Positions 4,149-18,435 of a DNA stretch of 21,390 nt are shown here, one piece after another (position 1 is the stretch's first letter; each line of letters opens with the position of its first letter). The stretch is from a virus, in IMG/VR virus record IMGVR_UViG_3300030333_008210, positions 1 through 21,390 of that record, one strand, 5' to 3'. Below the pieces are notes generated by a model. It worked only from the letters and a program-made list of their open reading frames with translations, did not search any database and was not told the origin of the DNA. Both the position numbers and the translations under genes were made by a program.

Positions 4149-4463
4149 TTACAATTTACCTTTACCAAAATTTGAGACATTAATTGGTTTACCTTTTCTG
4201 TCAGGATTTTTATCATGTCTCCTTTTTGCTTTAACGGCATTACCTCGTTCTTTTTTAGAGAGTTGTTGTCTTTTTTTCCTCGACATGCATTTGGGTTTTG
4301 GACCATCTGCTTTACCATCACCGTCTTTATCATCTCTAGCACAATCGCCTACAACTTCGCCCTTAGTATTAACTCTTTTCCAATCTCCTTCAGGATTAGA
4401 TTTACTAAACCATTTTCTAAGATCTTCGTTGAATTGTTTATATGTTTTCAACCTGACTTCCAT
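4149..4463 (-). CDS. Small basic conserved marine-phage protein, 104 aa
   Basis: Function unknown. The N-terminus has an aromatic F-x-x-type helix (LKTYKQFNEDLRKWF) reminiscent of capsid-targeting peptides. Then come DWKRVNTKGEVVGDC, a DxDxDG-like acidic loop (DDKDGDGKADG), a second cysteine in PKCMSRKKRQQ, and a very basic end (KKERGNAVKAKRRHDKNPDR). This C-x-n-PKCM-x-n-KKER arrangement recurs in marine tailed-phage proteins of unknown function (recalled from memory, possibly DUF6321-like, not verified). Its ATG overlaps the end of the 57-aa gene by 16 nt, and its ribosome site (AAAGGTGG) lies within that gene. The two neighbours carry motifs that I recall seeing together elsewhere, so they may act together. 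Confidence 0.85.
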   Translation of the reverse strand: MEVRLKTYKQFNEDLRKWFSKSNPEGDWKRVNTKGEVVGDCARDDKDGDGKADGPKPKCMSRKKRQQLSKKERGNAVKAKRRHDKNPDRKGKPINVSNFGKGKL

Positions 4464-4621
4464 CCACCACCTTTTGATTTATACCATTTTGCGGCCCATC
4501 CGTTGGCATATGCCGATGGATATACATCGAATTTTGACTTAGCCATTGACTTGGCTTGTGACCAAAGTTTAGGATTTGTAGGAATGCTTTTTTCTACGAT
4601 AAAATCTTTAAATCTTAACAT
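4448..4621 (-). CDS. Small conserved phage protein with PSAYANGWAAKWYK motif, 57 aa
   Basis: Starts MLRFKDFIVEKS, close to the T4-type capsid-targeting pattern with a possible prohead-protease site IVE at residues 8-10. It then carries KFDVYPSAYANGWAAKWYKS, a motif recurrent in small tailed-phage proteins of unknown function. A longer frame upstream to 4693 exists, but the ATG at 4619-4621 is preferred: GGGGAG (4626-4631) lies just upstream, and the extra residues would be a Lys/Ile/Phe-rich run from coding overlap with the neighbouring 113-aa gene. It overlaps the upstream gene by 14 nt and the downstream one by 16 nt. Probably a minor internal virion protein; that is inference. Confidence 0.8.
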   Translation of the reverse strand: MLRFKDFIVEKSIPTNPKLWSQAKSMAKSKFDVYPSAYANGWAAKWYKSKGGGWKSG

Positions 4622-4949
4622 GATTCTCCCCAAATGATGAAAAAATATTTTTAAAATTTTCTTCAACTTTATTCTTTCTAGTTTTTTCTTCATCTATTTT
4701 TTTCATTAAAAAATCAAACATTTCTTTTTTCTTTTCAAGTTTTAAAGTTTTTTCGCCTTTTTTTTCATTTCTTAAATTTATCAATCTCATAATCGTTTCT
4801 ATAACATCATCCTTGAATTGCAGATCTCTTTTTGAAACCTCATTAATTATATTTTTTGTTTCGCTATCAGATAAATTATATTTTATTTTTAAGTAGTTTT
4901 CTTTTTCTTCTGTAATTTTTTCTATAAAAAAAATTTTAAATTTTTTCAT
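4608..4949 (-). CDS. Hypothetical charged helical protein, 113 aa
   Basis: Unrecognised. It is Lys/Glu-rich and predicted almost entirely helical, with coiled-coil-like stretches (IEKITEEKENYLKIKYNLSD and LEKKKEMFDFLMKKIDEEKT). Its ATG overlaps the stop of the 250-aa gene as ATGA (4946-4949), so translation is likely coupled. The ribosome site is weak (CGGAAAA). Composition and the tight operon position support a real gene. No enzymatic motif is visible. Confidence 0.78.
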   Translation of the reverse strand: MKKFKIFFIEKITEEKENYLKIKYNLSDSETKNIINEVSKRDLQFKDDVIETIMRLINLRNEKKGEKTLKLEKKKEMFDFLMKKIDEEKTRKNKVEENFKNIFSSFGENHVKI

Positions 4950-6280: not shown

Positions 6281-9200
6281 TCACTCCTCTTCAATAAATT
6301 TTTCTCCTGTATGATCTTCTAATATACGAATCATTCTTTCCATATTTATTCTAACAACTTTACCAGTCTTCAAATTTTTGGAATAAAATTCCCATTCACC
6401 CTCAGCATTGTGTGGACTCCCCTGAGTTTGGTTTCCTGCTTCATCGATAAAAAATAATTGTGATATTTGATTTTCTCCTACTGTTACAGGTCTTGCTACA
6501 ATATAAGATTGACCTGTAGGAAAATTTGTCGGAACTACTCCATTAGAAAATGCTAACACATTATTTGCATCACCAATTCCTCCCGCTCCCGTAGTTATAG
6601 TAGTATCACCAATTCCAACTGCTCTTGCTTTTATGCTCAATGAATCAGCAGAACTATCCCATGATGTTAAAAAATCTGTTGTTGAACCATTGAGTGTAAA
6701 ATCAGTATTAAAAACTGTATTACCGTGAACTGTTAGATTATCTCCTATAGTAGCTGATTTTTTAACTGCTAAACCACCTGCTGATTTCAATGCACCCGTA
6801 GTATTAGATGTTGAATTTGTAGTAGATGTAACATTAACTTGTCCAACATAAACTCTTCCAAGAGTATCCCCAAAATTTACAATCTTATTCGAATCAGCAG
6901 ATATTAATTTTGATGCATCAACCGATCCTAATGTAATTCCTGATGTCAAGTTTAAATCAGTTGAGGTTGCAGTTAAACCATCTAATAAATTTAATTCAGT
7001 TGTAGAGGTTGTCACACCATCTAATATATTCAATTCAGTTGCAGAAGAAGTAACTAATGTACCTCCCAATTTTAATCCATTAGTTGACTCATCATGTCCT
7101 GCAACGTCCAAATCTTTACTAGATTTAATTGTTACTGTAGATGTGGTTGCCGATACAGTTTCTTCAAAATTTTCAATCGCTTTTAAATCATTTGTTGATA
7201 ATGTTCCAATTCCATCTAAAACATTCAATTCATTAGCAGAACTTGTAACTAATGTTCCACCCAATTTAAATCCCACAGAAGATCCATCATGATTACCAAC
7301 ATCTAAATTTGTGGATATCTCTAAACTACCTGTAATTAAAGAATCACCGATTACATGTAGTGGTCTTTGAGGATCCACACCAACACCTAGACGACCATTT
7401 TTACTTACCGCCACGTATTGTGTTGAACTATCATTCAAAACAATTAAACCATCCCCACTTCTTGCACTTATAACAGTATTAGCACGACCAAAATCAGTTA
7501 TAAAATTACCATTTAAATCTAAATTTCCGCCTAATTGGGGTGAAGCATCCTGAACTACATCTGTTAGGTTTACACCTGTGCCAGATGCAAAAACTAAGTT
7601 ACCATTTAATAGTCTTAAATATTGTCCATCGGAACCAGCAGTATTAGGTAAATTATATGCATCACTAATTCTGATAACGCCATTAGCAACACCATTATGT
7701 GTTCCTAAATTTAGTGTTCCATCTTGTGAATTAAATCCTGTTGTATTAGCAGGAAAAACAATATTACCACTAAATACAAACCCGTCAGCACTAGATTCTA
7801 TTTTATCTGTATTGGTCAAATCCTCTAACTGAAGTGTACTTTTTCCATCAGCATCACCATCTCTTTCCAATAAAATTGCACCCGCTTCACCATCCCCATC
7901 ATTATTCATTATCATATCACCACCAAAAACTAATCCAGATTCTCCACCTAAAGTGACACCTTTATTTGCTTTTAGTTTTGAATTTTGATTTAATTGAATA
8001 TCCGAAGTTATGATATTATCATTCGAAAATAATTCAAATTTTTGATTAGAAGATGTAGCATTTAATGTTGATACACTAATTGTTTCATCGCCCGATCCAG
8101 TATTTCCTATGGATGTTTTTGGTATTGTTAGAGAATCACTGATTTCATAGTTAAAACCACCGTTAGTAACTATAACTTGAACAACTTGTCCACCACTTAC
8201 GTAAACAGTTGATTTTATACCAAAACCGTTACCACCCGTTAACGTGACATTATCATATATTCCATCCGTATGATCGGAATAAGTTTGTGTGGCAGTTCCT
8301 AAAGTTTTTACATTTCCGCTTAAAAATGAAATTGTATCTGTATTAAATGTTAAATCTTGTCCAGTTCCATCAATACCAGAAACAACTTTTCCCTTAAAAT
8401 TTGTTTGACTCGTTGTATTTACTGTACCAGAAAAATTTATTGATGATGTAACATTCGCTAATGTACCAGTTACATTAAATTCTGTTCCTGAAAAAGTTGC
8501 ATTTGCGCCAGTATGAGTTAGGTTTGCAGTAACATTTAATAGAGGACCTTCTACATCAAATCTTGTAGTAGTATTAGAATATAAAATTGCAGTATTAATT
8601 TCTAAATTTGCAGTAGATAAAAATGTGATTTTATCATCAGAACTAATTCTTATATCACCATCATTTGGTGAATTTATTTCTAATCCACTATCTCTAAAAA
8701 CTAAAGATTTATCAGTTAAAATTTCTACATTATCAGAAAATTCTCCCTTAGCACTTTGTACTGTTCCTGTTGTAATAACATTTTCTGATGTTAATAAATT
8801 TTTGACATATCCATTAGCAAATTGATTTGTAGTATTTCCCAAATCAAATGTTACGTCTGTTGTCGGTATAACATTTGATGAAATTGTTGCCGCAAAAGCA
8901 ACTGTATCACCACTGCCAGTTGGTGTATTATTACCTAAAGTAACAGTTCCACCATCAGAAGTAATATTTCCATTTGCGTGTATATTTCCATGAACCAGAA
9001 GATCTTCACCAACGGTGACTTTTTTGGCTACACCTACACCCCCTGAAACGGTTAAAGCACCCGATGTATTTGTTGTTGAATCGTCTTGGTTTGCAATAGA
9101 AATAGCGCCTTCATTAGCACCAGAAGATAAAAAATTTACATTCGATGATATTCTAAGTAATGTACCTTCAATATTTGTTCCTGTAGCAGTTAGTGATGTA

Positions 9201-10216
9201 TTTGTACCCGTAACATGTAAGTTTGCACCATCTACAGTTGTATTTCCACCAACATTTAATTTGTGATCTAAAGTTACATTTGTATCAAAATAGGCATTAG
9301 TTGTTGATTCATCACCTAAAAAAGTTAAATTAGTTCCGGTAAATTCTAGGTTTGAACTAACATTTAAATCTGTTCCCTGAACTTTAAAAGATGATGAATT
9401 TACTAATGCTTCATTTGTGCTAACCACTAATGTTTGATTTGTATCTGAACCTCTAGGGTTACCATCTGTTTCGGTTACACCAATTCTTACATTTCCATAA
9501 AATGTTGAGGTATCATTATTTCCATAAAAATTTATACCATTAGATGTAAAGTCTCTACCATTGTGATGTAAATTTGCACTAACAATAGTATTTGCTGAAA
9601 TTTTGAGATCAGAACCATCAATGTTTGTACCTGTACTATTAATATAGAGATTGGCAGATTCTATATTAGTATTACTTGATTGAGAATTAATTGTGAATTT
9701 AGCGGAAAAGACGGAGTTAGAAGAAACATTTAAATCGGTTGTTTCAAAAACAACATTATCACTTGTAAATTGTAAATTAGATGCTACATTTGTTATAGCA
9801 GTAATCAATAAATTACCTGATGTATTACCGTTGATCACACCAGCATATAAATTTTTAAAAGCCGATGTTGTATTTCCTAAATTGTAAATATCATCTGTTT
9901 CGGGATTTACATTTGAACTAAAAGAATTTAAACTAATGGTGTTTATTGTAGTATTACCATCTATCGTAATATCACCATCAATTCTTATGTCTTTTTGAAA
10001 ACCAACTCCCCCCTTAAAAACTACCGATGCATCAGACGAATCTACAACATTTGCAGTATTTGAAAAAAATATTTTCGGTTCAACATTTGAAAAGAAATTT
10101 TCAACTGATATTTTTTTGTTACTAGGAGTTCCCGCTGGATCATTTACAACCATTAAAATATCTTCTTTGGTTGAAAATGATAGTGCAGGAAGACCTGAAA
10201 TTCTTTTGTCTGCCAT
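6281..10216 (-). CDS. Giant fibre-like virion protein, 1311 aa
   Basis: Predicted long beta-structured fibre or appendage protein, the largest gene here, very rich in Asn, Thr, Ser, Gly and Asp. The N-terminal ~40 residues (MADKRISGLPAL, DILMVVNDPAGTP, NKKISVENF) match the N-terminus of the 260-aa gene upstream and probably form a common attachment domain. The shaft has repeated short strand-turn units (forms of VHGNTTVDGANLHVTGTN, and NLGNTT-x-F-x-N-L). Around residues 940-960 is RLGVGVDPQRPLHVIG. At about 970-1090 are repeats with LGGTLVTSSA-x-ELN-x-LDG, typical of phage tail fibres. The last ~80 residues form a distinct end domain (SQLFFIDEAGNQTQGSP, VVRINMERMIRILEDHTGEK). ATG at 10214-10216 with GGAAAAG upstream. 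No peptidase or lyase domain was recognised. Confidence 0.88.
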   Translation of the reverse strand: MADKRISGLPALSFSTKEDILMVVNDPAGTPSNKKISVENFFSNVEPKIFFSNTANVVDSSDASVVFKGGVGFQKDIRIDGDITIDGNTTINTISLNSFSSNVNPETDDIYNLGNTTSAFKNLYAGVINGNTSGNLLITAITNVASNLQFTSDNVVFETTDLNVSSNSVFSAKFTINSQSSNTNIESANLYINSTGTNIDGSDLKISANTIVSANLHHNGRDFTSNGINFYGNNDTSTFYGNVRIGVTETDGNPRGSDTNQTLVVSTNEALVNSSSFKVQGTDLNVSSNLEFTGTNLTFLGDESTTNAYFDTNVTLDHKLNVGGNTTVDGANLHVTGTNTSLTATGTNIEGTLLRISSNVNFLSSGANEGAISIANQDDSTTNTSGALTVSGGVGVAKKVTVGEDLLVHGNIHANGNITSDGGTVTLGNNTPTGSGDTVAFAATISSNVIPTTDVTFDLGNTTNQFANGYVKNLLTSENVITTGTVQSAKGEFSDNVEILTDKSLVFRDSGLEINSPNDGDIRISSDDKITFLSTANLEINTAILYSNTTTRFDVEGPLLNVTANLTHTGANATFSGTEFNVTGTLANVTSSINFSGTVNTTSQTNFKGKVVSGIDGTGQDLTFNTDTISFLSGNVKTLGTATQTYSDHTDGIYDNVTLTGGNGFGIKSTVYVSGGQVVQVIVTNGGFNYEISDSLTIPKTSIGNTGSGDETISVSTLNATSSNQKFELFSNDNIITSDIQLNQNSKLKANKGVTLGGESGLVFGGDMIMNNDGDGEAGAILLERDGDADGKSTLQLEDLTNTDKIESSADGFVFSGNIVFPANTTGFNSQDGTLNLGTHNGVANGVIRISDAYNLPNTAGSDGQYLRLLNGNLVFASGTGVNLTDVVQDASPQLGGNLDLNGNFITDFGRANTVISARSGDGLIVLNDSSTQYVAVSKNGRLGVGVDPQRPLHVIGDSLITGSLEISTNLDVGNHDGSSVGFKLGGTLVTSSANELNVLDGIGTLSTNDLKAIENFEETVSATTSTVTIKSSKDLDVAGHDESTNGLKLGGTLVTSSATELNILDGVTTSTTELNLLDGLTATSTDLNLTSGITLGSVDASKLISADSNKIVNFGDTLGRVYVGQVNVTSTTNSTSNTTGALKSAGGLAVKKSATIGDNLTVHGNTVFNTDFTLNGSTTDFLTSWDSSADSLSIKARAVGIGDTTITTGAGGIGDANNVLAFSNGVVPTNFPTGQSYIVARPVTVGENQISQLFFIDEAGNQTQGSPHNAEGEWEFYSKNLKTGKVVRINMERMIRILEDHTGEKFIEEE
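7012..7310 (-). repeat. Imperfect direct repeats encoding LGGTLVTSSA-ELN-LDG units
   Basis: Two ~95-bp imperfect copies (about 7016-7111 and 7212-7307) encode DLDVAGHDESTNGLKLGGTL and NLDVGNHDGSSVGFKLGGTL, each continuing VTSSA-(T/N)-ELN-(I/V)-LDG. A third, shorter ELNLLDG unit lies just downstream at about 6975-7000. This is an internal repeat of the fibre gene, not a mobile element. Confidence 0.75.
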
Positions 10217-11893: not shown

Positions 11894-12088
11894 CTATTTA
11901 AATTTTCTTATATAATTTTTATATGCACGATCTGAAGAAAAACCAGAAGCACTGGATTCGTCAGAACTTGCAGTTGGTGTAGATTTTGGAGCAGGTTTAG
12001 GTTCTGCTTTTTTTACCGTTTTTTTAGGTGCAGGAGCCGCCTTCTCCACCACTTCTATTGTTTCAGTTGTATCAGACTTTTCAGCCAT
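11894..12088 (-). CDS. Lys/Ala/Pro-rich disordered small protein, 64 aa
   Basis: Low-complexity, histone-tail-like protein. After an acidic start (MAEKSDTTETIEVVE) comes a run of Ala, Pro and Lys (KAAPAPKKTVKKAEPKPAPK), a Ser-rich linker, and a basic end (SDRAYKNYIRKFK). Such composition suits binding to DNA or to acidic surfaces in the head. It starts at the stop of the 1083-aa gene (TAATG, 1-nt overlap), with ribosome site AAGGAG inside that gene, so the two are translationally coupled. It may be an internal head or DNA-binding protein, by composition and position only. Confidence 0.78.
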   Translation of the reverse strand: MAEKSDTTETIEVVEKAAPAPKKTVKKAEPKPAPKSTPTASSDESSASGFSSDRAYKNYIRKFK

Positions 12089-15000
12089 TATTTTCTCCTT
12101 GTAAACATTCCATTTTTGCTTCTAAAAACTGAATCATTAATACTCTCTACATATTTATCTAAAGATTCACCAAATGTTTTAGGTGGTTCTGTAGTATAAA
12201 TTCCTTGACCCATTTTATCTTTTCCTATAGCAGGTGTTCCTTCATCCCCAATTACACTATTACCATCCTCTTTTTCAGATAATTCTTTAACACCAAAACC
12301 ATCGATCAATTCAATGAATTCTTCCATGGTCATTTCCGGATCATCATAAAATGCTTGAACATCCGCTATTGTAATTGTTGCTAAGGCGCCCTCAGTATTT
12401 TCTAATCTAAGTTTATCAGGTGTTTCTGAAATTTTATAATAAGAATAATTTTCAATATTTTTAATAGATGTACCCATCAAATAATGTACTAATTGTTCAA
12501 AAATTCTAAATGGATCTCTACCGTTTGCAATTATATTGCCTTCTTCGATTCCTTGACCAGGAGTATCTTTTCTATATTTTTTGGTTAATTTTGTGGTACC
12601 TTCTTCACCAGCACCATGCTCTTCATCTGTTTTTCTTTTTTCAAGAAGTTTATTAATCTTAGAAAGATTTTTATTTACTTCTTCTTTTTTAGAATGTTTT
12701 GCAACCATTCTATCTGTATATGTTTTAGATATTTTAAATCTTTTTTCACCATCTTCATGTGACAAATGTCCTCTTTTATCATGTCTTTTATTAATTGCTT
12801 TCAATTCTTTGCCATGAGCAACTTCTTTAGGATCTTTTTTATTATGATATTTTTTCCAAGCATAAACAGCGGCTTTACCATGTTGATTTTCATCTTCGTA
12901 TTTACTATATTGCTTGTCCATTTCTTCAATGGGTTTTGTATTAGAGTTCATCTCTACCTCTTCTGATTTAATTTTTTTAGGCAATCCTTCATGTTTAGTA
13001 CCAGCATAATCTTTTACATCTTTGGCACTCATTTCTTTAGCGGCCTGTTCTGCTTCTGGTGAGCCAGATGCTTTACCCTTTTGTATTGCTCTAACTAGAC
13101 CAAAAAATTTTTGTTGTTGTTTTGAAACTGCTTTTTCATCTAATTGGACATCTTCAATGTACATGTTAAGTTCATATCGTTTGTCATCAAGATTTGCAAC
13201 TTGAACATGCAAGTTTTGCTTTTTATCTGTTCCTAGAATATAACGATTTGTTTTACCGCTAGAAGGTTTTCTAGGACCTGTTGCTACTTTATTGTCGATA
13301 TCATCTTTATCAACTGTATATCCTCTTTTCTTAGCAACTGCATAGGCATGTTGCATAGCAGATGAGAAATCTTTATGATATAGTTGGTAATCTGAACCTT
13401 TTTTCTCATCAATATGATCCATTGCACCACACTCACCACAATGTTCTTCAATTTCAACTTCTTCTTTGTATCCACGTTGTTTAGCAAATTTCTTTGCTCC
13501 ATCAAGAGAAGGATGAGAACCCCAATCTTTATTGATGATTCCTTTATCATCGATAACAACCATATGAAATTGATCTTGACCAGGTTTATATGCTTTCTTC
13601 AATATCATAAAGTCACCTTTACCTTTTGGTCCACTTAGAGATGCACCAAGATTGCCACTTCCCCCAACATTTAATTTATCACCCTTTTTTTGTTTAACAT
13701 AACCTTCTTCAACTTCTTCATTAGCCCTTTTTACTTCTAATTCTTTATGACCACCTTTATCCATGAGTTTATCCATTGCCCTAGAAGCATGTGAGCCAGA
13801 TTTGTATGTACCAAGTATTTTACCATCCGCATCTTTTACATGATAAGTTCCTTTTTTCCAACCTCTTCTAACAACTTCATCTAATCCTGCTCTTTTTCTT
13901 TGTGCTTCTTCTCTTGCCTTTTTCTCGGCTTGAGCAGTTTTTCTATTAGCATAAGGTGGTATTTTCATTTTAGGTGTTTCATCAACATTATGAAACATTT
14001 TTACACGACCAACAATTTGATTAGGAAAACCATCACCTTTTACTTTTTTATGTTTTTCATCAATATTTTCTTCATTTGCGAGACCTGTTTTTTGATAACC
14101 TTGAGATGCTTTCTTATCTCTAAGTCTCTTAAACATCTTCACACGTTTTTCAACACTGCCTTTGTCCATTGGCATAGAACGACCTTCATCCTGTTGCTTA
14201 TTAGCCTCTTTTTCTGCTTTTTCTTTTTCATCCTGATCAGAATGAATTTTCATTGTCTTTGCAAGTTTTTTCTTAAAACCTGATATTGCCCCTTTAACTT
14301 TTTTCTTATCAGGACCAGTATATTTCTTAACTGTTCCACCTTTGGCTTTATAATCAGCAATTTGTTTTGCATATGCGGATTCAACTTCATCAAGTTCAGT
14401 TTCTTCCTTAGTGTCCATTAACTTTTTTCTCTGTTTTTTAGAGTATCCCATTGCCACGAGATCACCATGAGATAAATTTTCACGTTCTTTTTTGGTCAAT
14501 GGTTTCATATCATTTTCTTCTGGAACACAATTTGGAACCATCTTTTGACCCTTTTTTTTCATTCCAACTTGTTTGAATCCAGTCCAACATGCTTCTGAAG
14601 TTTCCTGTTCTTCTTTGTTCAATGTCTTTTTAATAGAATAATCAGCAAACTTTTGTGCTTGTCTTCTTCTCCTTGCGGCTTTTTTTGGATCTGTTATGGA
14701 CATCTCTCCTCTGCTTTGTTTATCTGCTTTATCCATAGCATTGTAAGCCTTATCCGCGGACATTTCTTTTACTGCATCTTCTTTCATACCCTTTAGATGA
14801 TAATCAAAGGATGGAGATACTCCTTTGTAATTTTTCATGACAGATTTTGGAAAAGTCTTAGCCATCATTCCTAAGACAAAATCTCTAGGATCTGTATCAT
14901 TTTGAATTGCATCTGCTGATGGCATTCTGCCTGAGGAAGCAATTGATGCTATATTTTCGAAATATTTTTTATCTATTCCCCCTTGCGATTTAGCATAAGC

Positions 15001-15339
15001 GGCTAATTCAGAAGCAAAATCTCTCAATTTTCTTTCCATTCTTTCATTAAGATCTTCTTCATTTACTTTTGGATTCAGTTTTACTTTTTCTTGTTTATTA
15101 TCCAATTTTATTGGAGACTTGCTTTCAGTCTTTTTTTGACTAGCAATTGCTTTACCAATTGCTTTTCTTCTTTTTTTCAAATATTCATCTGAGGAATCTT
15201 TATCCCCATCATTATCTACATCTCCATCTTCTTGACCGACAGGATCCATCTGAATCTTGGCGTTTACTGTTTTTTCATATAATTTTGCGATACTATCATC
15301 ATCATTTGAAAAAGCACCGCCTTGAAGTGATTTTAACAT
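12088..15339 (-). CDS. Mosaic multi-module protein, putative internal head polyprotein, 1083 aa
   Basis: A Lys/Glu-rich string of small modules with no single known function. In order: EF-hand-like acidic loop (D40-D48, GDVDNDGDKDSSDEYLKKRR); helical module (100-245); CWTGFKQVGMKKKGQKMVPN (251-270), a cysteine motif seen in marine phages; lysine-rich helical segments (319-485); a module with RGWKKGTYHVKDADGKILGT (492-511); HCGEC (633-637); a DUF3008-like module, KAVSKQQQKFFGLVRAIQKG to TKHEGLPKK (736-789); and a C-terminal module with RIFEQLVHYLMG (945-956). Many boundaries carry (L/I)-x-E: LNE97, LDE316, IDE426, LDE486, IEE630, IDE643, LDE733, IEE804, IEE931 and LSE1020. That is the T4 prohead protease pattern. 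ATG with CAGGAG upstream. It is coupled to the next gene by TAATG. Polyprotein processing is inference. Confidence 0.85.
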   Translation of the reverse strand: MLKSLQGGAFSNDDDSIAKLYEKTVNAKIQMDPVGQEDGDVDNDGDKDSSDEYLKKRRKAIGKAIASQKKTESKSPIKLDNKQEKVKLNPKVNEEDLNERMERKLRDFASELAAYAKSQGGIDKKYFENIASIASSGRMPSADAIQNDTDPRDFVLGMMAKTFPKSVMKNYKGVSPSFDYHLKGMKEDAVKEMSADKAYNAMDKADKQSRGEMSITDPKKAARRRRQAQKFADYSIKKTLNKEEQETSEACWTGFKQVGMKKKGQKMVPNCVPEENDMKPLTKKERENLSHGDLVAMGYSKKQRKKLMDTKEETELDEVESAYAKQIADYKAKGGTVKKYTGPDKKKVKGAISGFKKKLAKTMKIHSDQDEKEKAEKEANKQQDEGRSMPMDKGSVEKRVKMFKRLRDKKASQGYQKTGLANEENIDEKHKKVKGDGFPNQIVGRVKMFHNVDETPKMKIPPYANRKTAQAEKKAREEAQRKRAGLDEVVRRGWKKGTYHVKDADGKILGTYKSGSHASRAMDKLMDKGGHKELEVKRANEEVEEGYVKQKKGDKLNVGGSGNLGASLSGPKGKGDFMILKKAYKPGQDQFHMVVIDDKGIINKDWGSHPSLDGAKKFAKQRGYKEEVEIEEHCGECGAMDHIDEKKGSDYQLYHKDFSSAMQHAYAVAKKRGYTVDKDDIDNKVATGPRKPSSGKTNRYILGTDKKQNLHVQVANLDDKRYELNMYIEDVQLDEKAVSKQQQKFFGLVRAIQKGKASGSPEAEQAAKEMSAKDVKDYAGTKHEGLPKKIKSEEVEMNSNTKPIEEMDKQYSKYEDENQHGKAAVYAWKKYHNKKDPKEVAHGKELKAINKRHDKRGHLSHEDGEKRFKISKTYTDRMVAKHSKKEEVNKNLSKINKLLEKRKTDEEHGAGEEGTTKLTKKYRKDTPGQGIEEGNIIANGRDPFRIFEQLVHYLMGTSIKNIENYSYYKISETPDKLRLENTEGALATITIADVQAFYDDPEMTMEEFIELIDGFGVKELSEKEDGNSVIGDEGTPAIGKDKMGQGIYTTEPPKTFGESLDKYVESINDSVFRSKNGMFTRRK

Positions 15340-15372: not shown

Positions 15373-16752
15373 TTAATTTTTTTGTGAATCCGTATTGTAA
15401 CCAGTTTCTTTTTCTCCGGAATCACCAGATTTTTTTAATTTTACTTTTTGTACATATCTTTTTTCCATGGAATCCGCTTGTCTGGCTTTCACAGTGTTTC
15501 TATCTTTAGGATTATTAAATTTTCTCTTAATATTAATTTCTGCGGTTTTTGGCGATGTCTTAGGAACAACAAAATCACCGACTGAAGTAGAAACATATGC
15601 ATCTGACTCACTCAAGGAAATCCATTTTTTAAAAGATAAATTGATATCTTTTTCTTCTTTCTTTGCCTTTTTTGCAGATGATGCTTTTGACCATAAATCT
15701 TTATCAGCGGTTGTTCTAGTCTTACCACCAGTCAAAAAAGAATTAACCCGTGCATATGCCCATTGTTGTGGAGTAGTTCCAGGTCGATGTCCAGTTTTCC
15801 ATGCGGCCATACCTCTATTAAAAACTTTTTTTAGAATACCATATGGAACACCTGATTTTTCAGATTTCTTTTTTAAACCTTCTAATTGTTCTTCCGATAT
15901 CGTTTCTTCACCATACATTGCTTTATACCTCTTAGTATATTTTGATTCTTTTGATGATGGTTTTCCATCACCTGGCGCTTTTGCTAAGTCATATGCTCTT
16001 TGGGAATCGTCTGGCATTTTTTTAGTTTTTTCCCATCTTGCATATCTTTTTTGTTTTGTTGATTTTGATAATCCAGCACCATATTTCTTAGGTTGATGTC
16101 CAGGAATGTCTGGATCATCTGCGTTTTTTTCTTCTTTTAAAGATTCAGAAATTGTTTTTATCTTCATGGCTTTTCTAATTTCATTATACATCGATTTTGC
16201 ATCTTTATCGGATAAATTGGTTCCTTTTTTAAAATTATCAAAATCACCACTAGATGCAAAACCTCTAAGTTTAGATGCAGACATTCCAGAAACACCTTCA
16301 GCATCAGGATCTCTATCACCAGAACTTTGAAATTCAATATTATTGAAATTATAAAAGCCGTGTGCTTTCCCTTCTACATTATTATATTTAGGTATCATGT
16401 TAGAAAACTCTTTAATTCTATCACTACCTACAACAATATTTACTGATCTATAACCTTGTGAATATAAATCAGATAATGCTTTAAAAATATTAGGTTTGAT
16501 ATCAATATGTATTGACTTGTTTAATATTTTTTTAGCGTAGACTATTTTTTTGGAAGGATCTAAAGGATCTTTTTTAGAATTTTGAGAGGGAGATAAAAAT
16601 ATAAAAGGGTCCGCTTTTTGTCTTTTCGACAATGAAATAATTTTGTCCGCTAATTTAACATGACCAATTGTGGGCGGATTCATCCGCCCATAACTTAAAA
16701 CAGCCGTTTTACCATTTTTTGTTTCTAAAACCAACCGTCTTAAAGTTTTCAT
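15373..16752 (-). CDS. TIGH-type nucleotidyltransferase domain fused to small phage modules, 459 aa
   Basis: Residues 1-200 form a cytidylyltransferase/NMNAT-type nucleotidyltransferase domain. Evidence: YGRMNPPTIGHVKLAD, with the HIGH-family motif as TIGH (28-31), VNIVVGSDRIKEF (104-116), and the C-terminal MSASKLR (157-163), which corresponds to the ISSTKLR-type motif. After ISE (201-203) comes a basic module (DIPGHQPKKYGAGLSKSTKQ), and after ISE (285-287) a conserved phage module (GVPYGILKKVFNRGMAAWKT to WAYARVNSFLTGGKT, 301-345; DUF5824-like from memory). After FKKWISLSE (374-382) follows a basic tail. The N-terminus MKTLRRLVLE resembles a capsid-targeting peptide. Substrate unknown. No clear ribosome site precedes the ATG at 16752, which lies 5 nt after the previous stop, so translation is probably coupled. 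Confidence 0.87.
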   Translation of the reverse strand: MKTLRRLVLETKNGKTAVLSYGRMNPPTIGHVKLADKIISLSKRQKADPFIFLSPSQNSKKDPLDPSKKIVYAKKILNKSIHIDIKPNIFKALSDLYSQGYRSVNIVVGSDRIKEFSNMIPKYNNVEGKAHGFYNFNNIEFQSSGDRDPDAEGVSGMSASKLRGFASSGDFDNFKKGTNLSDKDAKSMYNEIRKAMKIKTISESLKEEKNADDPDIPGHQPKKYGAGLSKSTKQKRYARWEKTKKMPDDSQRAYDLAKAPGDGKPSSKESKYTKRYKAMYGEETISEEQLEGLKKKSEKSGVPYGILKKVFNRGMAAWKTGHRPGTTPQQWAYARVNSFLTGGKTRTTADKDLWSKASSAKKAKKEEKDINLSFKKWISLSESDAYVSTSVGDFVVPKTSPKTAEINIKRKFNNPKDRNTVKARQADSMEKRYVQKVKLKKSGDSGEKETGYNTDSQKN

Positions 16753-16756
16753 CTAA

Positions 16757-17200
16757 TTATTTATAACCGTTATCTTCGCAGAATTTTTTAATTGCTACAT
16801 CATTATAAGGAATAAGTTTTTCATCTTCACCGACATAAAATTTTTGTTTATTATGCTCTACGATTGTATGTGTAGATTCAAAAATTTCTTTATGTCTTTT
16901 TCTTGTTGTTTCATTTTCCTCTTTAACTTTTTTAAGAATTTTTTGATAAACAACATTATCCTTAGTAATTAAACCAAGAAGTTTATCGAAAAGTCTTACC
17001 GTCAACATTCTCTGTTTTGGTGTAAGAACTTTCTCATCTTCCATATCTTTCATCATTTTAATGAAAAGTGCATATTCATCATCAGCAATAAGACCTGCTC
17101 TAGCAAGTCTTCTCAATCTATCATCGATTCCCTCCTTCAGGGTAATATCGAACATAGATTTCTGCAATCTGTCTAATAAACTATTTTCGTTTTCTAGCAT
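16757..17200 (-). CDS. Hypothetical helical protein between two nucleotidyltransferase genes, 147 aa
   Basis: Not recognised as an enzyme. Predicted helical: DDRLRRLARAGLIADDEYAL, then KVLTPKQRMLTVRLFDKLLG (58-77) and a charged coiled-coil-like stretch (VYQKILKKVKEENETTRKRH), ending in IVEHNKQKFYVGEDEKLIPY. Similar helical proteins with an R-L-A-R-x-G-L repeat and a T-x-x-(E/Q)R-x-x-L-x-x-L-x-(D/E)-K-L core occur in marine myophages (recalled, not verified). It starts inside the stop of the 411-aa gene (TAATG) with ribosome site GGGAG. Co-translation with the flanking nucleotidyltransferase-like genes suggests a related role, or shared packaging in the head. Confidence 0.82.
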   Translation of the reverse strand: MLENENSLLDRLQKSMFDITLKEGIDDRLRRLARAGLIADDEYALFIKMMKDMEDEKVLTPKQRMLTVRLFDKLLGLITKDNVVYQKILKKVKEENETTRKRHKEIFESTHTIVEHNKQKFYVGEDEKLIPYNDVAIKKFCEDNGYK

Positions 17201-18435
17201 TATTTGCTCCCGAATGTTTTAGTTGCCATAAAATTTTGTCTAGTAAACTCTAAACGATCAATTAATTTTACTGCACCACTATCAGTAGTAACTGCTACAA
17301 ACCCCTCTGGATTAGTAACTTTATAACCGTTTATTGTTTGAATAAAAGTTTTAGTTAAAGGTTTCATATCTTGCAATTTCTTAATTACTAGCATTTTAGC
17401 GGCTATTAAAAGATTTTGCATTTCAAATATATTCTTCAACTTTAGAGAATTATTTTTAAAAAAACTTAAAAATGTATCATTCTTTTCTTTTCTTTTTTGT
17501 CTTCCTTTTTCAGATTTCAATTTTGAAACTTGATCATTTAATTTTTTTTCTAGATATCTAACCATTTCTTTTACATGTTTTCGTGTATTACCTATTGGCA
17601 TACCTTGCATAATTTTTTGATTATTGAATGCTTTAATTTGCAAATTAATATCTTTATCTTTCGCTATTTGGTTTAATATTTCTTTATCTAATTTTCTGAA
17701 AAGTTTTCCTGCTTCTGATAAAATTAAGAAAAATCTTTCTGATTCTTCTTGTGTAAAATTTGCAACACCATCCATTTTTTCATATTCGGCATCCTTAAAC
17801 CAAACATCTTTACTACTTTTAAAATTAGAAATATCAACATCAAATGATGCATTCATCTCGTTTACTTTTTCCCCATCATATTTTGTATGCCAAACAACAC
17901 CAATTTTAGCATAATTAACTATTTTTCCTAATTCACTATTTAAGGGTATAGCATATGTTATTGTGTTTGGTTTAAATACTATATGCTTTTCATCCTCAAT
18001 GGCTTCAATTTTTTTATGATAAGGTAAACTGAATAATAAATCTCCTTGATATACCCCATCCATATTTAACTCACTTAAATATTTAAGTGAATTTTTTAAT
18101 TTATCATTCAGATCACCTTCACCATGATTATTATCTATGTCTTCATCCGTAAAATTTAATTTCGGTTCTTTAGCAAAAGCACCATGTTTTGTAGCAACGA
18201 AAAACTTACCAGTCTCTGGATCTTTTCCCGCTACTATTGCTGGAGCCCCATCCCATTTTGTTGTGATGGTTATCTTACTTTTTGAAGAACCTTTTAATGT
18301 TTTTGCTATCGAACTTAGATAAACAATGGATTTTCTTACTCCATCAAATCCATTGTTTAATATCTCATCTTCAATATGCTCAAGGTGTTTATTAGCACCT
18401 TGAGATTCAGTTACGAATTCTTGGAAAGATATCAT
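17200..18435 (-). CDS. Predicted ligase-fold nucleotidyltransferase (KWDG motif), 411 aa
   Basis: Motifs in the order of the DNA/RNA ligase superfamily are visible. Motif I is KWDG (K60 as candidate nucleotide-accepting lysine, in ITTKWDGAPAIVAG); a motif Ia-like segment is FFVATKHGAF (78-87); a motif III-like segment is GVYQGDLLFS (127-136); motif IV is NPEGFVAV (375-382); motif V is VKLIDR (389-394). The helical insertion at about 225-365 is long for the family. The N-terminus MISFQEFVTE resembles the T4 capsid-targeting peptide. I recall such proteins as DUF6267 in marine phages, without verified activity. ATG with AGAGGA upstream; a late-type promoter box lies about 36 nt upstream. First gene of the late block, followed by the 147-aa gene with a 1-nt overlap. 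Confidence 0.85.
   Translation of the reverse strand: MISFQEFVTESQGANKHLEHIEDEILNNGFDGVRKSIVYLSSIAKTLKGSSKSKITITTKWDGAPAIVAGKDPETGKFFVATKHGAFAKEPKLNFTDEDIDNNHGEGDLNDKLKNSLKYLSELNMDGVYQGDLLFSLPYHKKIEAIEDEKHIVFKPNTITYAIPLNSELGKIVNYAKIGVVWHTKYDGEKVNEMNASFDVDISNFKSSKDVWFKDAEYEKMDGVANFTQEESERFFLILSEAGKLFRKLDKEILNQIAKDKDINLQIKAFNNQKIMQGMPIGNTRKHVKEMVRYLEKKLNDQVSKLKSEKGRQKRKEKNDTFLSFFKNNSLKLKNIFEMQNLLIAAKMLVIKKLQDMKPLTKTFIQTINGYKVTNPEGFVAVTTDSGAVKLIDRLEFTRQNFMATKTFGSK

Follow-up and report, generated by a model that had tools for sequence, protein, structure and literature searches.

A mosaic protein of a marine T4-like phage is a probable capsid-cargo precursor cut by the prohead protease

The stretch of DNA analyzed here (the window) comprises positions 1 to 21,390 of IMG/VR virus record IMGVR_UViG_3300030333_008210 and is a piece of a marine T4-like phage genome. 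Its minus strand contains an open reading frame (ORF), P0001 (12088..15339), encoding a protein of 1083 residues, 122 kDa and a whole-protein isoelectric point (pI) of 9.2. A preliminary description, made from the sequence alone, took this protein for a head polyprotein cut at repeated (L/I)-x-E sites, and we conclude that it is probably a capsid-cargo precursor cut by the prohead protease gp21. The protein is a modular mosaic whose modules are shuffled among related phages, the protease motif lies at module starts, initiator Met and x-Glu are exchanged at one module, and gp21 is encoded by relatives. Published proteomes and record annotations place homologous proteins of the same gene block, including one module alone, in virions. 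That the 1083-residue protein itself is cleaved, packaged and injected is inferred, and so is what the modules do.

Results

Modules are shuffled at acidic joints

Loci carrying the modules in other orders were gathered by IMG/VR and phage searches. Relative to the nearest relative (L005), whole modules have been cleanly gained or lost at linkers, and syntenic proteins of 667-1413 residues in L005, L013, L018, L019, L024 and others are built in the same way. In L129, L131, L135, L136 and others the same modules, at up to 92% identity, are differently ordered. The claim that the protein is a string of small modules is borne out by this homology to proteins with other module orders, and modules were found in related phages both as separate genes and in new arrangements, as had been anticipated. 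The same comparisons confirmed that new modules start directly after residues 488, 735 and 806 (645 likewise). All ten tripeptides listed in the preliminary description are present, with Glu at 99, 318, 428, 488, 632, 645, 735, 806, 933 and 1022; four more, LYE22, LLE900, IFE948 and ISE972, had not been listed.

Joints in the syntenic proteins include EEVELDE, EETEIEE and EEVELGE, with a consensus of EE-V-E-(L/I)-(D/E)-E. Two residues before the last Glu of an acidic cluster (position P3), L, I or V was present in 55 of 84 cases in mosaic proteins versus 50 of 251 in other proteins (65% versus 20%, p = 4e-14). A module-anchored test covered 13 modules of the 1083-residue protein in 123 embedded occurrences with distinct upstream sequence, using a 12-residue upstream zone. 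At most 12 residues before the module, (L/I)xE occurred in 70 of the 123 (18.5 expected, Poisson p 5e-20) and (L/I/V/M)xE in 100 (30.8 expected). The control (L/I)xK gave 20 versus 24.5 expected, and the (L/I)xD control likewise failed at joints. The upstream (L/I)xE signal is strong for the KLRD, SAYA, GWKKG, YQLYHK, DUF3008-like and MDKQ modules, and the YQLYHK module (residues 646-735) has the tripeptide just upstream in 20 of 26 embedded contexts. The suggestion that (L/I)xE is commoner at joints than chance would allow is strongly upheld in relatives, where module starts are enriched over both background and control tripeptides.

A start codon and (L/I)xE are interchangeable before one module

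N-terminal copies of the DUF3008-like module (residues 736-790) start with Met-Pro in 19 of 19 proteins. In embedded copies, whose upstream sequences are unrelated, P1 is Glu in 25 of 25 distinct contexts and P3 is L or I in 18 of 25 (V, M or Y in the remainder), while no constraint is seen at P2 and P4; only Lys or Glu occurs at P1', and Pro never does. In many of these copies the tripeptide has no acidic run ahead of it. Ahead of this module an (L/I)xE site can thus stand in for a start codon and vice versa, an exchange that is predicted by a protease-made N-terminus and not by a plain linker. A general search for stand-alone and embedded pairs of any protein found the exact Met-to-xE exchange almost only at the DUF3008-like module; most of the other pairs resulted from misplaced alignments or from internal starts, and the exchange is therefore established for one module only. 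With 18.7 bits (E = 0.0019) over the whole profile, residues 736-790 fall below the Pfam gathering score of 24 for DUF3008 (PF11450), and by this sequence criterion the module is DUF3008-like only. A bacterial-genome scan with the module confirmed no relatives, and there is therefore no gp21-free control. Among the papers searched, none names DUF6267 (a family encoded in the same block) or DUF3008.

These observations bear on the possibility that the chain is an uncut multi-domain head protein, packaged and injected intact, with the acidic EE-V-E-L-D-E stretches serving as flexible spacers or as short homology patches for module shuffling by recombination. A spacer does not predict an invariant Glu at -1 and L or I at -3 in unrelated contexts while -2 and -4 vary, nor does it predict that an initiator Met replaces x-Glu in stand-alone copies. 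The failure of the (L/I)xK and (L/I)xD controls and the many embedded copies that lack a preceding acidic run also speak against it, and we consider it unlikely, even though the linkers are acidic and alike, the modules are shuffled, (L/I)xE is missing from some joints, fragments have yet to be observed and some polyvalent proteins are packaged and injected intact.

Site counts within the single protein

Within the 1083-residue protein, (L/I)xE occurs 14 times versus 8.9 in shuffles (p = 0.048) and the stricter (L/I)(D/E)E 8 times versus 1.5 expected, a value reached by 0 of 2000 shuffles. Plain (L/I)xE counting proved too weak a test in this one protein, and position was therefore tested in relatives, as described above. 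A genome-wide ranking by (L/I)xE was likewise rejected as a test, the window protein not being outstanding and the baseline in these phages lying about 1.2-fold over shuffles; in S-CREM2, the top of such a ranking is formed by two known substrates, gp22 and gp21, together with gp160, a mosaic protein of the virion. When every Glu close to a homology break was taken into account, no significant signal emerged (0.25 versus 0.21 with L/I/V at -2), since an acidic linker contains more than one Glu; the last Glu per cluster or exact module starts are therefore needed.

The modest excess of sites (14 versus 8.9) and the genome-wide observed/expected ratio of about 1.2 are what would be seen if (L/I)xE were merely common in an E/K-rich protein unrelated to heads. 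This coincidence is contradicted by the position-specific tests in relatives and by virion proteomics of homologues, and we hold it to be highly improbable.

Prohead protease and capsid targeting in related phages

T4 gp21 cleaves after L/I-x-E, and T4 internal proteins are targeted to the capsid by an N-terminal sequence of which the first ten residues are enough (PMC9026906). Because the 21-kb window is a fragment without head genes, gp21 is not encoded in it. Relative records were checked for a gp21-type protease by Pfam Peptidase_S77. Of the 39 records, 20 encode it, 6 among the 18 searched first and 14 among the other 21; many of the gp21-negative records are short fragments. The gp21-positive contig G019 (L135) has modules in common with the 1083-residue protein at up to 88% identity. 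In gp22 of four relatives, (L/I)xE is enriched (53 versus 25) and VxE is not (19 versus 17), and the N-termini of major capsid proteins hold several (L/I)xE, the last of which directly precedes the conserved mature start.

T4-like capsid-targeting N-termini were found on 44 of 868 non-redundant proteins of these loci versus 2.6 expected, mostly on DUF6267, cytidyltransferase and mosaic proteins (for example MKTYSQFIEE in P-SSM7). In the window they are present on the block neighbors at 15373-16752 and 17200-18435. In S-CREM2 a strict form of the motif is carried by 3 of 51 virion proteins versus 0 of 161 others (p = 0.013), and gp14, annotated with a GTG start, would make a fourth virion protein with the motif. 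Among the papers searched, capsid targeting is linked with cyanophages only in one T4 review.

Four virion-detected accessory proteins of S-CREM2 (gp6, gp12, gp13 and gp14; L111, 1-20000) have T4-like capsid-targeting sequences (MKDFDSFLEE, PLRFASFMAEA, MKDLHSFLTE and KRFDAFLTE). They comprise a SAM hydrolase, a Cas9-like nuclease, a 78-residue protein and an APH/ChoK-like kinase; the motif lies near the N-terminus of the Cas9-like protein and at the start of the others. A predicted Ser/Thr kinase in the same block of S-CRM01 (g130; L097 13670-16135) has the capsid-targeting-like N-terminus MISFDQFLSEK, and protein kinases have been found in S-CRM01 virions according to the S-CREM2 paper (PMC10665884). 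The motif may be a general head-cargo marker in cyanophages. Stand-alone DUF3008-like proteins end in or precede a capsid-targeting-like motif (KRTFKEFLEYIE, GKTLKEFLENI and KKTYEEFVSE; L230 8995-9204, which is S-SCSM1 gp279, L231 1495-1968 and L232 1495-1965), which suggests a targeting signal placed after the module in these proteins.

Homologous block proteins occur in virions

Homologous block proteins are reported from the virions of three cyanophages. In S-CREM2 virions, gp154 (cytidylyltransferase), gp155, gp156 and gp160 were detected (PMC10665884). The last of these is a module chain with LSE, LEE and EETEISE joints, and holds a CW-type module and a DUF5872-like module, the latter being a separate gene in the window. 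Residues 21-44 of gp160 (L068 18343-19236) have 75% identity to a stretch of the phage's own major capsid protein beginning immediately downstream of the presumed gp21 cleavage site (GATGFTGAAAPEGPVAGYDPLM versus GADGFTGAAAPGGPNAGFDPVM). In S-SZBM1 virions, the cytidylyltransferase SZBM1_140 and its neighbor SZBM1_139 were detected (PMC9146016); SZBM1_139 lies at the position of the 1083-residue gene, and its CW-type module is 48% identical over 29 residues. Five block proteins of S-SCSM1 are labeled as virion proteins, namely gp280, gp279, gp089, gp282 and NMNAT (PMC9602691; record annotation). Of these, gp280 is the syntenic mosaic protein and gp279 (69 residues) is the DUF3008-like module alone, with 59% identity to residues 737-789.

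Virion presence also bears on whether the protein is instead a sacrificial prohead core protein like T4 gp22, gp67 or gp68, cut by gp21, its fragments expelled and with no function in the new host. The relatives' gp22 has the same motif enrichment, and contig G014 encodes a module-joined protein near gp21, roughly at the place of T4 gp67/gp68. However, finished virions contain homologous block proteins, the single DUF3008-like module among them, and the set of modules varies greatly and is in part folded, unlike a repetitive coiled coil. The block lies apart from gp21-gp23 in Melnitz and S-CREM2, beside helicase or primase/nrd genes, and the window's neighbors are alike; the hallmarks of a T4 scaffold (a gene beside portal and gp21/gp23, a coiled coil) are absent from the 1083-residue gene. 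We judge a purely sacrificial role to be improbable.

Module map of the 1083-residue protein

All segments are encoded on the minus strand. The N-terminal segment (residues 1-22; 15274..15339) ends in LYE22 and has no clear T4-type capsid-targeting sequence. Residues 23-99 (15043..15273) form the DxDNDGDxDSSDxYLxxRRKAI module, with 56% identity to a stretch of the S-SCSM1 virion protein gp280, and end in EEDLNE99. Residues 100-318 (14386..15042), ending in EETELDE318, contain the KLRDFASEL (~100-190), MSADKAY (~195-245), CWxGxxxxGxKxxxxxxPNC (~252-276) and MKPLTKKER modules; the inner joints between these four modules lack (L/I)xE and may escape cutting. They are followed by the VESAYAKQIADYKAKGGTVKK module (residues 319-428; 14056..14385), ending in EENIDE428, and the GRVKMF..PYANRKTAQAEKK module (residues 429-488; 13876..14055), whose end AGLDE488 is common to relatives with differing modules after it. 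Residues 489-632 (13444..13875) hold the RGWKKGTYHVKDADGKILG module and a second module (~552-625) and end in EEVEIEE632; a 13-residue HCGECGAMDHIDE spacer with two Cys (residues 633-645; 13405..13443) comes next.

The YQLYHKDFSS...ELNMYIE module (residues 646-735; 13135..13404) is modeled as alpha+beta with a predicted local distance difference test score (pLDDT) of 79 and ends in DVQLDE735. The DUF3008-like module KAVSKQQQKFFG (residues 736-806; 12922..13134), ending in IEE806, is the stand-alone virion protein gp279 in S-SCSM1. Residues 807-933 (12541..12921) consist of the MDKQYSKYEDENQHGKAAVYAWKKYH module and a basic helix, ending in GIEE933, and residues 934-1022 (12274..12540) of the NIIANGRDPFRIFEQLVHYLMGTS module, with a pI of 4.3, ending in ELSE1022; the internal (L/I)xE at 948 and 972 are probably not joints. 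The C-terminal tail (residues 1023-1083; 12091..12273) is mostly low-confidence in the model and is conserved in syntenic relatives. Seven of the 12 predicted pieces have a pI >8.7.

AlphaFold modeled the full chain as separate folded beads (mean pLDDT 60.8), and 7 of the 10 listed joints fall within or border on stretches with pLDDT <50, the alignment being shallow. E900 is in a long helix, and E948 and E972 are within the folded 942-1013 region of the model. No Pfam-A or named PHROG domain reached cut-off in the protein, and none of the named polyvalent domains (PMC5512222) was recognized by Pfam-A or PHROG; such weak or absent matches exclude nothing. The same applies to Foldseek against the PDB, which at E<=0.001 matched neither the whole model nor module 646-735, and to VIA-align, with none at Z>=8 for the whole model.

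Genome window and block neighbors

Gene order in the window, assigned by profile matches, synteny and our own reading of the sequences, is gp41-type helicase, DUF6267 protein, cytidyltransferase-like protein, mosaic protein, fiber-like genes, gp61-type primase, thyX and ribonucleotide reductase. The same block, varied, is found in Methylophilales phage Melnitz, S-PM2, S-CREM2, S-SZBM1 and S-SCSM1 (all Kyanoviridae). All block genes described here are on the minus strand. Upstream of the mosaic gene lies a gene for an NMNAT/cytidyltransferase-like domain with DUF5824 (15373..16752), whose orthologues are virion proteins in S-CREM2, S-SZBM1 and S-SCSM1. A gene for 147 residues (16757..17200) follows, and then the DUF6267 protein (17200..18435), with the T4 IPIII-like N-terminus MISFQEFVTE.

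In contig G014, a homologue of the 147-residue protein adjoins the gp21/gp22/gp23 genes and is fused to other modules (L086 7400-8506; near gp21, gp22 and the major capsid gene) through the joints EEVEQIDE and EEVELEE, which ties the module system to the head gene cluster. The modules of two stand-alone window genes are fused in one G014 protein: a cargo-like gene for 104 residues (LKTYKQFNEDLRKWF..; 4149..4463, minus strand; 64% identity) and the next, DUF5872-like gene (4448..4693, minus strand; inner start MLRFKDFIVEKS; 69%), the latter module also occurring in the S-CREM2 virion protein gp160 (44% over 27 residues). Elsewhere in the window, a 1311-residue repetitive protein rich in Asn, Thr and Ser (6281-10216) is probably a tail fiber or other surface protein; it adjoins related fiber-like genes with a common N-terminus MADK(R/K)...

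Discussion

We propose that the precursor would enter the prohead core alongside block neighbors with T4-like capsid-targeting N-termini. As the head matures, a prohead protease of the gp21 type would cleave most acidic joints, directly behind the Glu of (L/I)-x-E; V-x-E joints would perhaps be cut slowly or not at all, and V-x-E or motif-free joints may stay uncut. About 8-12 small, mostly basic proteins would be freed from the chain, stay with the DNA and probably be injected, like T4 internal proteins.

Several points weigh against a gp21-cut cargo precursor. For none of these proteins has a cleavage product been observed, and the virion hits for block proteins could include carry-over, as noted by the S-CREM2 authors (PMC10665884). 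The N-terminus of the 1083-residue protein (MLKSLQGGAFSNDDD...) has no clear capsid-targeting sequence like MKTYQEFIAE. The DxDNDGD, CW and MSADK modules are preceded by (L/I)xE at no more than background, and not every joint need therefore be cut; V-x-E is frequent at joints, yet the gp22 statistics suggest that it is not favored by this protease. In the 1083-residue protein alone, the raw (L/I)xE count is weak (p about 0.05), and 6 of 14 sites lie at most 6 residues from homology breaks versus 3.5 expected (p = 0.12). The preliminary reading of a protease-cut head precursor is supported by the checks that could be computed, and needs correction in that V-x-E is also common at joints, several joints are motif-free and two or more (L/I)xE are internal to a folded module.

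By analogy, the arrangement combines two themes known from T4, internal proteins that are targeted to the capsid and core proteins that are cut at many sites, and it is also close to polyvalent proteins. With T4 IPI-III and Alt, which are capsid-targeted, gp21-processed and injected, it shares the L/I-x-E motif and, as predicted, small basic products and highly variable cargo, and the N-termini of block neighbors (MKTYSQFIEE in P-SSM7, MISFQEFVTE in the window) are similar to that of IPIII. The T4 internal proteins are encoded by one gene each and lose only a short leader (Alt also its C-terminus), whereas the 1083-residue ORF has many modules with cut-like sites between them and no evident leader. 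T4 gp22, gp67 and gp68 are likewise single proteins with many (L/I)xE sites, and gp21 cuts them into several pieces, as proposed here; the T4 core fragments are mostly discarded, whereas here homologous modules are found in virions, shuffled and in part folded domains.

Polyvalent proteins of phages and conjugative elements, with 2-15 unrelated domains per polypeptide, are predicted to travel with DNA (Iyer et al. 2017, PMC5512222); their extensive mosaicism is described and the polyprotein analogy drawn by those authors themselves (PMC5512222). The 1083-residue protein is similar in its several disparate domains and mosaic architectures. Polyvalent proteins are processed by their own peptidase domains, zincin-like or C-terminal assemblin-like (PMC5512222), whereas no peptidase domain was detected in the 1083-residue protein, whose sites match a separate gp21 protease. 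In SPN3US and phiKZ, the prohead protease also cuts many packaged head proteins, sometimes multiply, after x-x-E, but there it is propeptides that are removed (of 14 mapped SPN3US sites, 13 are N-terminal), the motif is A/S/G-x-E and there is no chain of cargo modules. A literature search, with most subscription papers outside its reach, found no paper on such an arrangement.

On balance we lean towards a broader interpretation, a plug-in cargo system in marine T4-like phages in which the initiator Met is swapped for (L/I)-x-Glu, so that a small protein can be placed in a large precursor or made a separate gene, and the prohead protease frees about ten injected proteins, a set peculiar to each phage, within the capsid. 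If true, tailed phages would have a genuine polyprotein strategy inside the capsid, with the maturation protease acting in trans, and many proteins could be loaded into each head from one gene. The role of gp21 known from T4 would extend beyond leader removal and scaffold destruction to the making of many proteins from one precursor, and the replacement of Met by (L/I)xE would give a simple signature of head cargo. Much unannotated K/E-rich protein of abundant marine phages would become readable, and in silico cutting at (L/I)xE would list candidate injected micro-proteins, many of them probably for host take-over or counter-defense.

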